Source: Labilithrix sp.
GTDB taxonomy: Bacteria > Myxococcota_A > Polyangia > Polyangiales > Polyangiaceae
NCBI GenBank assembly: GCA_019637175.1
Contig: JAHBWD010000033.1
Location: forward strand, 1 to 64,000
DNA length: 64,000 nucleotides
Direction: 5' to 3'
Shown here: positions 51,584 through 57,610 of the stretch, in pieces
Numbering within the stretch: position 1 is the first letter of the stretch
Layout: the number at the start of each line of letters is the position of its first letter
Made by a program: the position numbers and the translations under genes
Notes under the pieces: generated by a model
Told to the model about the DNA's origin: nothing
The model's input: the letters and a program-made list of their open reading frames with translations, nothing else
Database searches by the model: none

Positions 51584-52420
51584 ATGGCGACGACCCAGGC
51601 CAGCCACACGGCGCTCATGATCGCCGCCTACCGCGCGCGCGCGACCGCGGCGGAGGGCGCGCTGATCTCGGATCCGTGGGCGGCCGCGCTCGCGGGTGAA
51701 GACGGGATGCGCATCGCGCGCGAGCTCGACGCGGTGTATCCCCACATGGAGCTCTGGACGGCGGTGCGGACGGCGCTGCTCGACGACCTCGTGGAGACGT
51801 ACACGTCGCCGCCGCACGACTTTCGTCAGGTGATCATGTTGGGGGCGGGGCTCGACACCCGCGCCGCGCGCCTCGCGAAGGGCGGCGTTCGTTTCTACGA
51901 GGTCGATCAGCCGAAGACCCAGGCGGAGAAGAGAAAGCGCATCGAAGCGCTCCCGGGCTACCCGAAGGGCGCGGCCATCTTCGTGGAGTGCGACTTCGAG
52001 CGCGACGCGCTCGCGGAGAAGCTCACGCTCGCGGGCGTGGATCTCGGCGCGCCCGCGCTCGTGATCTGGGAGGGCGTGACGCCGTACCTGGTGGAGGCGG
52101 CGGTGCGCGCCACGCTGCGCGCGATCGCGACGACGCTCCATCCGCGATCGGTGGTCGTCTTCGATCACCTGCTGAAGAAGCAAGCGGAGCAGAAGGAGCA
52201 CGCGCAGGGCTACGTCCAGCGCCTCGGCGAGCCCGTCGTCTTCGGCACCAACGATCCCGTGCCGATGCTCTACGAAGAAGGCTTTCGCCACGTGCGCAGC
52301 CTCTCGTTCGACGAGGCGTGCCTCAGCTTGACCGGCACGTACGCGCGCGAGCGCGAGTTCCGCTTCCAACGCATCGTCCTCGCGAGCGCCACGGCGCCCG
52401 CGAGGCCGTCGACCATCTAG
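51584..52420 (+). CDS. SAM-dependent methyltransferase (leucine carboxyl/PPM-type)
   Basis: A 278-residue methyltransferase of the leucine-carboxyl-methyltransferase-like group common in mycobacteria and myxobacteria (TIGR00027-type). Marks: TALMIAAYRA at the N-terminus, VIMLGAGLDTRAARL (SAM site), FYEVDQPKTQAEKR, and VIWEGVTPYL. Those members often act on polyketides, sugars or unknown small molecules. Start ATG at 51584, 20 bases after the glycanase gene on the same strand. The 237-base gap after it has no gene and holds the gasdermin leader. Confidence 0.93.
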   Translation: MATTQASHTALMIAAYRARATAAEGALISDPWAAALAGEDGMRIARELDAVYPHMELWTAVRTALLDDLVETYTSPPHDFRQVIMLGAGLDTRAARLAKGGVRFYEVDQPKTQAEKRKRIEALPGYPKGAAIFVECDFERDALAEKLTLAGVDLGAPALVIWEGVTPYLVEAAVRATLRAIATTLHPRSVVVFDHLLKKQAEQKEHAQGYVQRLGEPVVFGTNDPVPMLYEEGFRHVRSLSFDEACLSLTGTYAREREFRFQRIVLASATAPARPSTI

Positions 52421-52590
52421 CCGCAGGCCGCCGCAGGATCGCCTCGATAACGAGCCGCGACCCGCCGAACTCAAACCGTCCCGCGTCGTCGCTGAATGAA
52501 GCGAATGGACCGCGCGCTCGTGCCCATGGGTCGTGTCGTCCAAGGTACGAAAAGAGCGACCGTACACGCAGACAACGTGACGAACGTACT

Positions 52591-52605
52591 CCCTAGGCCC
52601 TAGGG
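52591..52605. repeat. Interrupted palindrome CCCTAGGCCCTAGGG
   Basis: CCCTAG and CTAGGG flank GCC, giving a perfect 6-base inverted repeat about 55 bases before the gasdermin start. CTAG is rare in high-GC genomes, so two copies here stand out. It could be an operator or a stem at the 5' end of the gasdermin leader. Confidence 0.45.
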
Positions 52606-52619
52606 GGGTTGACCGCCGC

Positions 52620-52657
52620 GGAGGCTTCCTGCCTCCTTGGGCCCGAAGGAGGGGATC
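52620..52657 (+). promoter_or_regulatory. Leader with two alternative hairpins over the gasdermin Shine-Dalgarno site
   Basis: Three short segments are involved: GGAGGC (52620-52625), GCCTCCTT (52631-52638) and AAGGAGG (52646-52652). The second pairs perfectly with the first (six pairs, loop TTCCT) or with the third (CCTCCTT with AAGGAGG, seven pairs, loop GGGCCCG). The third contains the Shine-Dalgarno sequence of the ATG at 52658. The two foldings exclude each other, so the leader could switch translation on or off. Pairing is seen directly; regulation is inferred. Confidence 0.55.
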
Positions 52658-53449
52658 ATGGGACTCTGCACCGACGACGCGACGACCTACCTGAAGCGCC
52701 TCGGCTACAACGTCGTTCGCCATCCGCGCGAGGGCGTGAACCCGCTGGACCTGGTCGGCAGGCAGAACGGCGAGACGCGATATCTGGGCTCGCTCGATCA
52801 GCTGATCAAGCGGCCACCCGAGACCGCCCTTCCTCCGGTGAAGACCGACGAGGTCGCCGGTGATGTGCAGGGCCAGGCATCCAGCAAGCTCAATTTCGCG
52901 ATCGGCGTGAACCTGCTCCAGTCCGTTCTCTCGGCGCTAGGAGGGAATGCCGGCATCAACGTCGGCTACAAGGGCGCAAAGACCGTTCAGTTCGTCTTCG
53001 ACAACGTGCTCACGGACTCCGTCCGCCCGCTCGACCTCGGGGACTACCTGAAGGCCGGCGAGGTCGACGACGCTAACCTCATTCTCCAGCAGTACGTGCT
53101 CGGCAACGGACGCCTCTTCGTCGTGACCCGCACAGTGAAGACCAACAAGTTCACCGTGAAGGCCGAGTCGTCGAGCGGCACCGAAGCCGCGCTCGACGTT
53201 CCCGCGATCCAGAAGATCGTCAGCGGCAACGTGAAGGTGACCGCGGCGGCCGAAAAATCAGGCACCGTCTCCTACGAAGGCGACAAGAAGCTCGTCTTCG
53301 GGTTCGAGTGCTTCGAGGTCGGGGTCGCCGGGGGCACGCTCTCGCTCATGTCCTCGAAGTCGGGCGCCGTCGCGCTCTCCGCCGGCTCATCGACGACGGT
53401 GAAGCCCACGATCGTTGATGAGAACGGACTTCTGGACTTCGACGAATGA
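52658..53449 (+). CDS. Bacterial gasdermin (pore-forming cell-death effector)
   Basis: A 263-residue protein of the bacterial gasdermin family. It starts MGLCTDDATTYLKRLGYNVV, with Cys4 at the place of the palmitoylated N-terminal cysteine in characterised members. HPREGVNPLDLVGR, SKLNFAIGVNLLQSVLSALGG, RPLDLGDYL, QYVLGNGRLFVVTR and LVFGFECFEVGV fit the family core as I recall it. Length agrees with known members (about 250-270). The last 45 residues (after Cys218) include the short inhibitory tail that a protease removes to let the N-domain build membrane pores. The ATG has a strong AAGGAGGGG. The stop overlaps the CHAT protease start by four bases. An upstream TTG at 52637 is rejected. Confidence 0.92.
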   Translation: MGLCTDDATTYLKRLGYNVVRHPREGVNPLDLVGRQNGETRYLGSLDQLIKRPPETALPPVKTDEVAGDVQGQASSKLNFAIGVNLLQSVLSALGGNAGINVGYKGAKTVQFVFDNVLTDSVRPLDLGDYLKAGEVDDANLILQQYVLGNGRLFVVTRTVKTNKFTVKAESSSGTEAALDVPAIQKIVSGNVKVTAAAEKSGTVSYEGDKKLVFGFECFEVGVAGGTLSLMSSKSGAVALSAGSSTTVKPTIVDENGLLDFDE

Positions 53450-55674
53450 GCGCGAGAAAAGCGGGGCCGTTGGAACGCGCCCTCGCTCTTCGCGATCCCG
53501 CGAAACGCTGTCGGGCGCTCCTCGCCATTCTGCCGAAGCTCCCCAAGGAGCTCAGGATGCGCGTGGCGCGAGCAGCGCTCGCCGTGGCGAACGCAGTCAA
53601 GGACGAGAAGAAGCGCGCCGTCTTGAAGCAGCGAGCCATGCGCGCGATCGCGGACATCCAGCTCCGTGCCCAGATGGAACAGCTCGCCGGTCGACAGCGC
53701 ACGAGAGGCAAGGCGGCGCCGCCCGCGGGTGTGCCGAGCATGCTGGGAGGCGTCCCGAGGAAGAAGAAAAAGAAGTCGGCCGCGAAGAAGACGAAGGCAA
53801 CGGCGAAGAAGCCGGCCCCGCGCAAGCAGAGCCCCAAACGCGGGGCCGCGAAGCCCAGGCCCAAGTCTCGCGCCGCGCCGCCGACGGAGCAGCTCGAGGC
53901 CGATCAGCCGGCCGTCGTGAACCTCGGCTTCAGCGATCCGACGCAGCCCGACTACCCGCTCGTGAAGGACCGCGCGCTCGCGCCGGGTGAGACCTACTAC
54001 TTCTGGCTCGAGGTCGGCAGCGAGGTCCGCGGAAGCATCTCCGAGACGCCGACCGCGCTTCCGCTCGAGCACCTGCCGCGCGAGGCGACGCTCGGCGTCA
54101 TGCTCTTCGGCAACGAGGGCGGATTCGAGCTCAAGGCAGTCGCCGGCTGGCTGCGGCTTCACGCTGACGGCACCGTCGACGTCGCGACACCCGCGGACGT
54201 TCCGGAGGACCTCTTCAACGAGCACGTCGCGCGCCAGCGGCTGTTTTTCGAGGTGCGAGCCCCCAGGACGCCCGGCATCCATCGCCTGCGTTGCTGCATC
54301 TGCTTCAAGGGGGCGCTCGTTCAGTCGTACGACATCGAGGCACTGGTCGACGAGGACACGAGCACGCGTCGTCCCGAAGCCGTCCTTCGATCGCGGATGG
54401 ACTACACGCTCTCGTCGACGCTCGGCAGGCAAACGCTCGACAGCTATGGCGAGCACCGCCTCACGATCATGCTCAACGACAACGGCAAGGGAACCCATGG
54501 CTTTCGCGTCATGGGCGAGGGCGGCGAGTACTACCGGAACCGCACCTTCGACGGGCAGGAGGTCCAGGACATCGTCGAGCGCGCGCGACGCGCGCTTCGC
54601 CGTGTGTCGTGGGGCTCCGACCAGCCCTGGAAGCAGGGCGACGGCTATCTCTACGAGCAGGATGCGCAGCGGAGCCAGCTGACGAGCGATCTGGTTCGCC
54701 TCGCGATCGCGGGCTACCGAAACTACGACGTGATCGCGTCACGTCTCGACGAAGGAACCGGAACACTTCGCGACTTGATGCGCACGCCCGCGACCGTGCA
54801 GCTCGCGCTCAAGGAGACGGCGCGTCTCGTGCTCCCTCTCGCGCTTCTCTACGATCACACCCTCGATACCGACGGCGATCCGAGCGAATACACCCTCTGC
54901 GACACCTTCACCCGCGCGACAGGCAACCTCGAGGAGCATCCCTGCTTTCTCGGAGACTGTCCGCACCGCGACACGCAGGGGAGCCGCGTGGTCTGTCCCA
55001 GCGGGTTCTGGGGCTATCGACATCAGCTCGGTATCCCACCCACGCTCGGATCGACGACCGAGTCGCCCGCGGAGCTCCCGGGCGTCCTCGAGTGCGCGGG
55101 TGAGCCCAACGTTCTGATCTCCGTGAGCACCGACCCCGCGATGCGCGAGCGAGATGATCACGTACGGGCACTCACCGAGCTCTTGAAGAAAGACAACGTC
55201 ACCTACGCAGAGACGCGCAAGGCCATCATCGGTCATCTCCGCAGCGCGCGGGCGCACGTCGTCTACTTCTATGGGCACGGCGGCGTCGACGACGGTGTTC
55301 CGTACATGCAGGTCGGCGCTCCCAACGAGCGCATCAGCCGGGCGACGCTCCGAGCGGAGAAGGTCGTCTGGTCGAACCCGCGCGCGCTCGTCTTCTTGAA
55401 CGGCTGTCACACGACCAATCTCGAGCCCGAACGTGCGATCGAGCTCGTGAGCGGTTTCGTGCAGACCGCCCGAGGCTCGGGTGTCATCGGCACGGAGATC
55501 ACGATCTTCGAGCCGCTCGCGACCTTCTTCGCGGAGGTGTTCATGACGGAGCTGGCCAAGCGCACCACGGTCGGTGAGTCGATTCGGCGCGCGCGGCTTC
55601 GCCTCCTCGAGAAGTGGAACCCGCTCGGGCTCGTCTACGTGCCCTACGCGCTCGCCTCTCTCAGGCTGTCATGA
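53446..55674 (+). CDS. CHAT-domain caspase-fold protease, probable gasdermin activator
   Basis: A 742-residue protein overlapping the gasdermin gene (ATGA). A helical N-terminus (1-90) leads to a Lys/Arg-rich stretch (about 107-150, KKKKKSAAKKTKATAKK). A beta-sandwich region (about 155-300, FYW-rich GETYYFWLEVG) and an alpha/beta region follow. The CHAT protease occupies about 560-742: His611 in YFYGHGG and Cys654 in LNGCHT form the dyad, and it ends PLGLVYVPYALASLRLS, as in other CHAT proteins of this build. CHAT and caspase-like proteases encoded beside gasdermins cut off the inhibitory tail. The middle region likely senses the trigger or binds partners. Confidence 0.93.
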   Translation: MSARKAGPLERALALRDPAKRCRALLAILPKLPKELRMRVARAALAVANAVKDEKKRAVLKQRAMRAIADIQLRAQMEQLAGRQRTRGKAAPPAGVPSMLGGVPRKKKKKSAAKKTKATAKKPAPRKQSPKRGAAKPRPKSRAAPPTEQLEADQPAVVNLGFSDPTQPDYPLVKDRALAPGETYYFWLEVGSEVRGSISETPTALPLEHLPREATLGVMLFGNEGGFELKAVAGWLRLHADGTVDVATPADVPEDLFNEHVARQRLFFEVRAPRTPGIHRLRCCICFKGALVQSYDIEALVDEDTSTRRPEAVLRSRMDYTLSSTLGRQTLDSYGEHRLTIMLNDNGKGTHGFRVMGEGGEYYRNRTFDGQEVQDIVERARRALRRVSWGSDQPWKQGDGYLYEQDAQRSQLTSDLVRLAIAGYRNYDVIASRLDEGTGTLRDLMRTPATVQLALKETARLVLPLALLYDHTLDTDGDPSEYTLCDTFTRATGNLEEHPCFLGDCPHRDTQGSRVVCPSGFWGYRHQLGIPPTLGSTTESPAELPGVLECAGEPNVLISVSTDPAMRERDDHVRALTELLKKDNVTYAETRKAIIGHLRSARAHVVYFYGHGGVDDGVPYMQVGAPNERISRATLRAEKVVWSNPRALVFLNGCHTTNLEPERAIELVSGFVQTARGSGVIGTEITIFEPLATFFAEVFMTELAKRTTVGESIRRARLRLLEKWNPLGLVYVPYALASLRLS

Positions 55675-55679
55675 CGCGT

Positions 55680-56492
55680 TCAGATCTCGAAGGGCCTGCT
55701 GCTCTCGAACGCTCTGTCGATCTGCCCCACGCGAAAGAGGTTGGGGGTTTGATCGGCCGGCATTTTCCGCACGATCGAGCGGTAAAAGTCGACGTACGAG
55801 CCGGCGAACGCACGGTTGTTCCACACGCGCAGCAGCGTCGACGTGAAAAGCCCGTTGAAGGGACCGTCGGACGAGAGCTGGTTGTCCTGGCAGCCAGACA
55901 TGAGGAGGGCGGTCGCGACGACCTTGCCCTCGGCCTGGGCGAGCGACTTGTCGGTGAGCACCTTGTCGTAGGTGGACTGGTTGTCTCGGTAGGTCCGCAT
56001 CGCAATCTCGACTGGCATCGCGCGGTAACGTTTCCCCTCGGTTCGACCGTCGACCGCCTTGGCGTCCTTGAGCACGGTTCCGCTGTGGCAGCTATCGGAG
56101 AGCGCGTAGATGCGCACGCCCTTCTTGAACTCGCCGAGCAGCTTGAAGATCTCGTCGTCGACGAGCTGGCCATCGTACAGACACCAGGTCTCGTCGATGC
56201 CGTCGGGCTCGTCGCCATTCCGATCGGGGAGCTGCCCGCCGTGACCGGAGTAGGTGAGAAAGAAGATGTCTCCTCGGTCGAGCGTCGCCGCGGCCTGGGT
56301 GAACGCCTTGCGAACGGCGGTGCGGGTCGCGTCTTTGGTCAGGAGCTTCTTGGTCTTGTACTCGAACGAGCGCGCGATCTCGCAGAGGTCGTTCGCGTCG
56401 GCCTCGCACGCATTCAGCTCGCCGGACCAACCGCTGTAGTGAGCTGCGCTGACGGAGTTGAGGCCGATATGCAGAGAGATTCCCTTCGGCAT
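55680..56492 (-). CDS. Metacaspase-like protein (peptidase C14)
   Basis: A 270-residue caspase-fold protease. SIXXG-type start GISLHIGLNSV, LNACEADANDL, LTYSGHGGQLPD with catalytic His84, and LSDSCHSGTV with catalytic Cys135 are the type I metacaspase p20 marks. MSGCQDNQLSSDG follows in the p10-like part. AGGGA-type Shine-Dalgarno sequence precedes the ATG; a longer start 20 codons upstream has none. It has no transmembrane or recruitment domain. It converges with the CHAT gene, five bases apart. It could be a second gasdermin activator or a separate death protease. Metacaspases cut after Arg/Lys, and SSKSG and other basic sites occur in the gasdermin tail region. Confidence 0.93.
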   Translation of the reverse strand: MPKGISLHIGLNSVSAAHYSGWSGELNACEADANDLCEIARSFEYKTKKLLTKDATRTAVRKAFTQAAATLDRGDIFFLTYSGHGGQLPDRNGDEPDGIDETWCLYDGQLVDDEIFKLLGEFKKGVRIYALSDSCHSGTVLKDAKAVDGRTEGKRYRAMPVEIAMRTYRDNQSTYDKVLTDKSLAQAEGKVVATALLMSGCQDNQLSSDGPFNGLFTSTLLRVWNNRAFAGSYVDFYRSIVRKMPADQTPNLFRVGQIDRAFESSRPFEI

Positions 56493-56545
56493 GACACTGT
56501 CCCTCCCCGTTGTGAACGGCGAGTGTACCTTCGGAGCAACTGAGG

Positions 56546-57610
56546 ATGTCAATCGCCAACAGCGTCGAGAGATCCTCCCGAGAGCGTCGCCGAACGCGGC
56601 TCATGGCGCTGGTCGTCGCCTCCGCCGTCGGCCTCGGCCTGGTGGGCAGCGCGGCGTGTGGGAGCGGTGAGCCGGACCCGGTGAGTCCCCTCACCTCTGC
56701 GTGCAAGAGCACCGAGGAGTGCCCCCGCGGCAGGCGTTGCGAGATGCGCCGCTCGTCCGCGACGAAGTGCGATCTCAGCCCGACCGACACGCTCGAGCCG
56801 CGAGAGGACATCGCGTGCCGTGTGCCCATCAACCGCGGGAAGTACGAGCTCGCGGGTGGCTTCGACGTCGACGAGCTCGACTTCAAGATCGAGAGTCCCC
56901 AGGGAACTGCCAACGTCAACGTCGCCTGGATCCCCCCCGAACGAGCGCGGACCGTCACCTGCGCCCTCTTCTCGTGCCTTCCTGAGTTCTCGACGAAGGA
57001 GCATGAAGGGACGACTCGCCCGCGTCTCGTCACGCTCGACCATTGCGTCCTCGCGAGCGAGACTTTCAACGCGACCTCCCGCGAGATCACGCTGGCGCAG
57101 CTCACGCGGCGCAAAGAGATGTGCCCCATCGAACAGACCGAAGGCAGGAAAGAGTGCGTCCCCGCGATCCTGGAGCAGCTGTCGATTGGCTGCTGGGCCT
57201 ACGACGACATCAAGGTCATCGCCGCAACGCGCCTCGAGAGCGTCGATCCCCAACGAAGCTTCGTCGCCGCGCGCTTTGCCGCCGACTGCAAGCAGCAGGG
57301 TGCAGAAGGCAAGAGCTGCGTCTTCGCCGATCAGTCTCCCTTCGGCACCTGTTTGGAGGGGGACTGTCTGGCGCGATGCCTCTCCCCCGATGACTGCGCG
57401 GGCGCGCCGCTCACGGCGGAGCCCATCGAGACGTCGAGTGACGCCGGTATCGACGCGGCGACCGCCGACGTCGACGCCGAGGTCGACGATACGGGTGACG
57501 CCTCCGACGCTTCGCCTGACGGTGGAGCCAACCTCTGCCGCCACACGTGCCGTGGGAAGCCAAAGTACGGCGACTTCCGTCTCTGCGAGCCGAAGAAGCC
57601 CTCGCCTTGA
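56546..57610 (+). CDS. Cys-rich lipoprotein, hypothetical
   Basis: A 354-residue lipoprotein. From the ATG at 56546 (GGAG nine bases upstream) the n-region is long and Arg-rich (SRERRRTRL); the ATG at 56603 would give a standard 19-residue signal. The lipobox is SAAC. About 18 Cys residues are spread over the mature part, ending in an Asp/Ala-rich linker and a Cys-containing tail (LCRHTCRGKPK). No family is recognised. It is divergent from the metacaspase gene over 53 bases and ends 13 bases from the convergent barrel gene, so it may belong to the same island. Confidence 0.7.
   Translation: MSIANSVERSSRERRRTRLMALVVASAVGLGLVGSAACGSGEPDPVSPLTSACKSTEECPRGRRCEMRRSSATKCDLSPTDTLEPREDIACRVPINRGKYELAGGFDVDELDFKIESPQGTANVNVAWIPPERARTVTCALFSCLPEFSTKEHEGTTRPRLVTLDHCVLASETFNATSREITLAQLTRRKEMCPIEQTEGRKECVPAILEQLSIGCWAYDDIKVIAATRLESVDPQRSFVAARFAADCKQQGAEGKSCVFADQSPFGTCLEGDCLARCLSPDDCAGAPLTAEPIETSSDAGIDAATADVDAEVDDTGDASDASPDGGANLCRHTCRGKPKYGDFRLCEPKKPSP

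Follow-up and report, generated by a model that had tools for sequence, protein, structure and literature searches.

Overlapping hairpins at the Shine-Dalgarno sequence of a gasdermin gene in Labilithrix sp.: an interesting yet unproven, quite possibly accidental arrangement

Is translation of a gasdermin gene in Labilithrix sp. governed by an RNA lock within its own leader, or are the complementary segments found there a product of chance? The question arises from a first-pass annotation of the 64,000-nucleotide stretch of DNA analysed here (hereafter the window), and the arrangement that it describes is, in our assessment, interesting yet unproven and quite possibly accidental. The protein-coding genes that define the locus are as follows:

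52658–53449, + strand: bacterial gasdermin, 263 aa, beginning MGLCTDD... (PADLOC bGSDM, E-value 9.1e-76)
53446–55674, + strand: CHAT-domain protein, 742 aa (Pfam CHAT, E-value 3.6e-6)
55680–56552, − strand: Peptidase_C14 (caspase-domain) gene (E-value 4.5e-24)

The bGSDM match covers positions 1–253 of the 257 in the profile, and on this evidence the gene encodes a genuine bacterial gasdermin; its product is a potentially toxic pore-former, with pore formation predicted here to follow cleavage. Bacterial gasdermin systems (PMC9079055) similarly combine a bGSDM with an adjoining protease-like gene, and of the caspase-like or CHAT proteases expected in the adjacent position this locus holds both (CHAT and Peptidase_C14). 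The N-terminal cysteine found in such systems (PMC9079055), which is C3 in the studied proteins, is Cys4 here. The CHAT-domain protein is a probable gasdermin-activating protease. Its start overlaps the gasdermin stop in the sequence ATGA and, because of this overlap, its translation is probably coupled to that of the gasdermin; any limit on gasdermin translation would therefore probably limit the partner protein as well. Additionally, the caspase-domain gene at 55680–56552 (−) is convergent with the gasdermin–CHAT pair and suggests a second protease in the locus. The known control of bacterial gasdermins consists of C-terminal autoinhibition and proteolysis (PMC9079055), and no report of RNA control was found in the literature searched, the coverage of which was partial.

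Upstream of the gasdermin start codon we located the following elements, read from the sequence:

52591–52605, + strand: CCCTAGGCCCTAGGG, a tandem of CCCTAGG, or palindrome with two CCTAGG sites
52620–52625, + strand: GGAGGC, 5′ arm of the upstream hairpin (HP1)
52631–52638, + strand: GCCTCCTT, shared pivot arm with perfect complementarity in both directions
52646–52652, + strand: AAGGAGG, gasdermin Shine-Dalgarno (SD) sequence and 3′ arm of the second hairpin (HP2)

The proposal that the pivot arm pairs perfectly with either the upstream GGAGGC or the downstream AAGGAGG, and that these pairings overlap, was verified at these exact coordinates. Likewise, the designation of AAGGAGG as the gasdermin SD was borne out by its position 5 nt before the ATG at 52658 of the bGSDM gene, and its SD match falls in the strongest group among the genes sampled from this genome. 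In HP1, GGAGGC (52620–52625) and GCCTCC (52631–52636) form 6 bp around the 5-nt loop TTCCT (−10.9 kcal/mol alone), whilst in HP2, CCTCCTT (52632–52638) and AAGGAGG (52646–52652) form 7 bp around the 7-nt loop GGGCCCG (−9.6 kcal/mol alone). The pivot accordingly has a double role, with 52631–52636 serving as the 3′ arm of HP1 and 52632–52638 as the anti-SD arm of HP2; because 52632–52636 are common to both helices, the two hairpins are mutually exclusive, a geometry that would allow a switch. The extra palindrome said to precede the hairpins is also present: the 15-mer CCCTAGGCCCTAGGG has a single occurrence in the 9.1-Mb genome, forms an 8-bp hairpin with its flanking bases (−10.3 kcal/mol), and is able to pair with the pivot arm through the G-rich right side of that hairpin. 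An in-frame TTG at 52637 (52637–52657 of the window), located 12 nt after the upstream GGAGG, constitutes an alternative gasdermin start that would add seven N-terminal residues; we judged its use unlikely because the N-terminal cysteine would be displaced.

Folding of the leader was predicted as an ensemble using the standard nearest-neighbour energy model, with both the 5′ and 3′ ends varied. For 5′ ends from 52421 to 52560, HP1 accounted for 19–39 % and HP2 for 0–7 %, with the remainder made up of other pairings, including that of the G-rich side of the palindrome with the pivot. With 5′ ends at 52580–52609 the share of HP2 ranged from 0 to 94 %, small changes of the 3′ end producing large swings, and only for starts at 52626–52631 was it the dominant state (92–98 %), the probability of an open SD dropping to between 4e-6 and 3e-4 at 52626 or 52631. 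The HP1 and HP2 states differed by −0.41 to +0.10 kcal/mol for 5′ ends 52588, 52600 and 52609, and HP1 was favoured by 2.5–2.7 kcal/mol for 52560 and 52620. The suggested lock on the ribosome site is not supported by these folds: the SD-closing hairpin is predicted to dominate in short leaders, but to form to only 0–7 % in those starting at or before 52560, and predicted SD burial is ordinary. The cost of opening the SD (3.7–5.0 kcal/mol) was matched or surpassed in 31–62 % of 380 genes of the same genome that have an SD, and in 50–61 % of those with a strong SD, placing the gasdermin near the genome median. Moreover, the foldability of the leader did not rise above that of shuffled sequences (z-score −0.22, and +0.32 to +1.09 in a second test). 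A role as an RNA thermometer was rejected, since the probability of an open SD remained below 1 % between 15 and 50 °C and changed only gradually over that range.

The rarity of the arrangement was assessed in a ∼0.96-Mb sample of this genome, from which 535 genes, 380 of them with an SD, were called by a simple frame-composition rule that is approximate and includes some wrong calls. Three of the 163 sampled genes with an SD match of at least 5 have a 7-bp SD stem with a loop of ≤ 15, and the gasdermin alone among these 163 combines such a stem with a competing partner of ≥ 6 bp. An unrelated gene of this genome, L062:6150 (L062 6090–6152), carries a 6-bp SD stem together with a 9-bp competing upstream helix. 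Under an order-2 Markov null, an SD stem had a probability per gene of 5.7e-3, and a stem accompanied by a competitor one of 1.6e-4; dinucleotide shuffling of the gasdermin leader, in which exact CCTCCTT was required, gave 1.2e-3 and 3.5e-5, respectively. In this genome of 70 % G+C, three-arm arrangements are in themselves common: the 6-bp/7-bp geometry is found at 112 sites across 0.96 Mb (7.5 per 64 kb). The gasdermin site is the sole one of the 112 to have a convincing SD as its third arm. For the whole window, with all of its genes allowed for, we estimate the chance of such a find at ∼0.5–1 %, which is unusual, not overwhelming, and which concerns a pattern picked out by a reader who could have remarked on any feature. 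Using a switch score, defined as the weaker of the two overlapping duplexes, the gasdermin leader ranked in the top 1–3 % of genes in its own genome at all settings.

Homologues were sought by protein and alignment scans of genome and viral contigs, plasmids and phages, and of genomes in the family, the phylum and three classes (one of these genome searches taking in just two genomes), and only three other gasdermins were identified, with overall protein identities of 28–36 %. These belong to the same order (L007/L010; 36 % identity, with a CHAT gene downstream), to the same class (L008/L011; 29 %) and to a Gloeothece plasmid (L021; 30 %), and all three match the bGSDM profile. Two other candidates were false matches, namely L002, by eye an MscS-like channel, and L009, an unrelated frame; L003 gave a weak match in the same query region as these two. 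The leaders of the three relatives do not align with the gasdermin leader. At the DNA level, no relative of the leader beyond short fragments was found in 108 family genomes, and the nearest methyltransferase homologue (L152; 59 % identity) has different surroundings and offers no empty site for comparison. A comparable alternative pairing is found in one of the three related leaders, that of L007, where it is longer-range, and is absent from those of L008 and L021. In the L007 leader (1405–1520), the SD GGAGG pairs with a CCTCC ∼35–40 nt upstream, and this CCTCC has an alternative partner, CGGGGGGA, further upstream. This SD is predicted to lie in a long imperfect hairpin (z-score −1.96; about −1.5 to −2), and its burial is in the top 4–6 % with the two shorter leaders and at 33 % with the longest. 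Its switch score reaches the top 1–7 % in its genome with loops of ≤ 45 or 60, and not with ≤ 30, a rank that is only suggestive as the long-loop setting was picked after the L007 fold had been seen. The switch score of L008 is ordinary in its genome, and that of L021, scored without a background genome, is low. The L008 gene begins 34 nt behind another gene and may for this reason not need a leader of its own.

The leader had been likened to a translational attenuator, a comparison that is apt for its two exclusive hairpins, one of which closes the SD, but not for a leader peptide over the first arm. In the attenuators of erm methyltransferases and in topAI, a uORF-controlled toxin gene (PMC5118997, PMC12121999), alternative pairing is likewise arranged around a downstream ribosome site; in these systems, however, a ribosome stalled on a translated leader peptide or uORF remodels the hairpin, whereas the gasdermin leader has no SD-bearing equivalent. 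Only one short ORF on the forward strand terminates closely upstream of HP1 (52496–52603, 35 codons); none of its ATGs is preceded by an SD, and its stop codon falls within the palindrome, 16 nt before HP1. As no credible leader peptide was found among the short forward ORFs upstream of HP1, we do not class the leader as an erm-type attenuator. Resemblance is also seen to the type I toxin mRNA AapA3 of Helicobacter pylori (PMC6733600), which encodes a lethal protein and forms mutually exclusive, SD-closing hairpins that are transient during transcription, one of them with its anti-SD upstream of the SD. Similarly, a short hairpin can join the gasdermin SD to an anti-SD close by (CCTCCTT/AAGGAGG, loop of 7). 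In AapA3, a single SD is contested by different anti-SDs and is closed in each of the hairpins, whereas the gasdermin leader has one anti-SD with two partners and one of its states frees the SD; furthermore, AapA3 is characterized by covariation and in vivo probing, and the gasdermin leader by sequence and computed folds. An antisense RNA was not identified for the gasdermin. If functional, the leader would be closer in its mode of action to the SD-closing hairpins of type I toxins than to an erm attenuator. No Rfam family reached its gathering score within the window, and the leader accordingly carries no curated riboswitch or RNA-thermometer family.

Taking these observations together, we hold with moderate confidence that the three complementary segments most probably arose by chance. 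Accidental complementarity would follow from a near-consensus SD (AAGGAGG) lying in a leader that is rich in G+C and has, in addition, a second GGAGG and one CCTCC. In any leader that includes 52620, HP1 would be made first in transcription and occupy the anti-SD; since HP1 would be finished before the polymerase reaches the SD, the latter should initially be free. The SD would then be left about as accessible as in an ordinary gene of the genome, and the gasdermin would be controlled via autoinhibition and, presumably, proteolytic activation by its partner protease, with no RNA lock. The folding order, the lack of selection on the hairpins and the control through proteolysis are what we infer; the sequence of the hairpins, their mutual exclusivity and computed folds, and the average burial of the SD, are what we observe. 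We favour chance because of the median SD opening cost, the shuffle-like foldability and the 0–7 % share of HP2 in leaders from ≤ 52560; because three-arm sites occur at 7.5 per 64 kb, L062:6150 is comparable and two of three relatives lack the pattern; and because there is neither an Rfam family nor a leader ORF with an SD. Speaking against chance, and keeping our confidence moderate, are the rarity of the arrangement on an SD (1.6e-4 per gene, one of 112 sites), the top 1–3 % switch score and the L007 arrangement.

The same features would be explained by a selected RNA lock, which we regard as a tentative and rather unlikely alternative. HP2 would mask the SD of the pore-former and, via the ATGA coupling, also limit the partner protease, with HP1 acting as a competing anti-lock. 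The perfect 6-bp and 7-bp helices with their common arm on an SD, and the rarity of this combination, argue for such a design, although the net burial of the SD is ordinary. Similarly, the near-equal free energies of both states for 5′ ends 52588, 52600 and 52609 are as expected of a switch, yet the outcome depends strongly on where the 5′ and 3′ ends lie. The balance might, with no greater likelihood, be set by a factor freeing or blocking 52620–52625 (an sRNA, a protein, a paused polymerase or RNA processing); no leader peptide, sRNA gene or ligand domain was found. The similar, longer-range alternative of the L007 leader and its well-buried SD (z-score −1.96) also point towards selection, but this comparison was set after the fold was seen and fails at loops of ≤ 30, and L008 and L021 are without the arrangement. 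That the gasdermin and its coupled protease are held at translation by exclusive hairpins, with the order-level relative L007 following the same logic in a different sequence, we consider improbable.

A reading at the level of DNA, in which CCTCCTTgGGcCCgAAGGAGG, GGAGGC-n5-GCCTCC and the CCCTAGG tandem would be repressor-binding sites at the gasdermin promoter, draws its support from symmetry: CCTCCTTgGGcCCgAAGGAGG is a dyad with nine of ten pairs over 21 bp, the element at 52591–52605 is also symmetrical, and CCCTAGGCCCTAGGG is unique in the genome. Nevertheless, CCTCCTT-n7-AAGGAGG occurs at just one other genome site, apparently within coding DNA, and there is therefore no evident regulon; the dyad also overlaps the SD, by which the sequence of the dyad is already constrained, and we rate this reading as quite unlikely. 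Finally, a static lock, whereby a transcription start between ∼52621 and 52632 would make HP1 impossible and HP2 would permanently reduce gasdermin translation, agrees with the 92–98 % share of HP2 for 5′ ends 52626 or 52631, but is highly improbable given a leader of only ∼25–37 nt and no sigma-70 promoter in 52380–52720, in a scan limited to the sigma-70 type.

Were the translational lock real, it would provide an abortive-infection effector with a second layer of safety and connect gasdermins to the mRNAs of type I toxins. If accidental, the arrangement is a caution that two- and three-arm complementarity is easily found in genomes of 70 % G+C.
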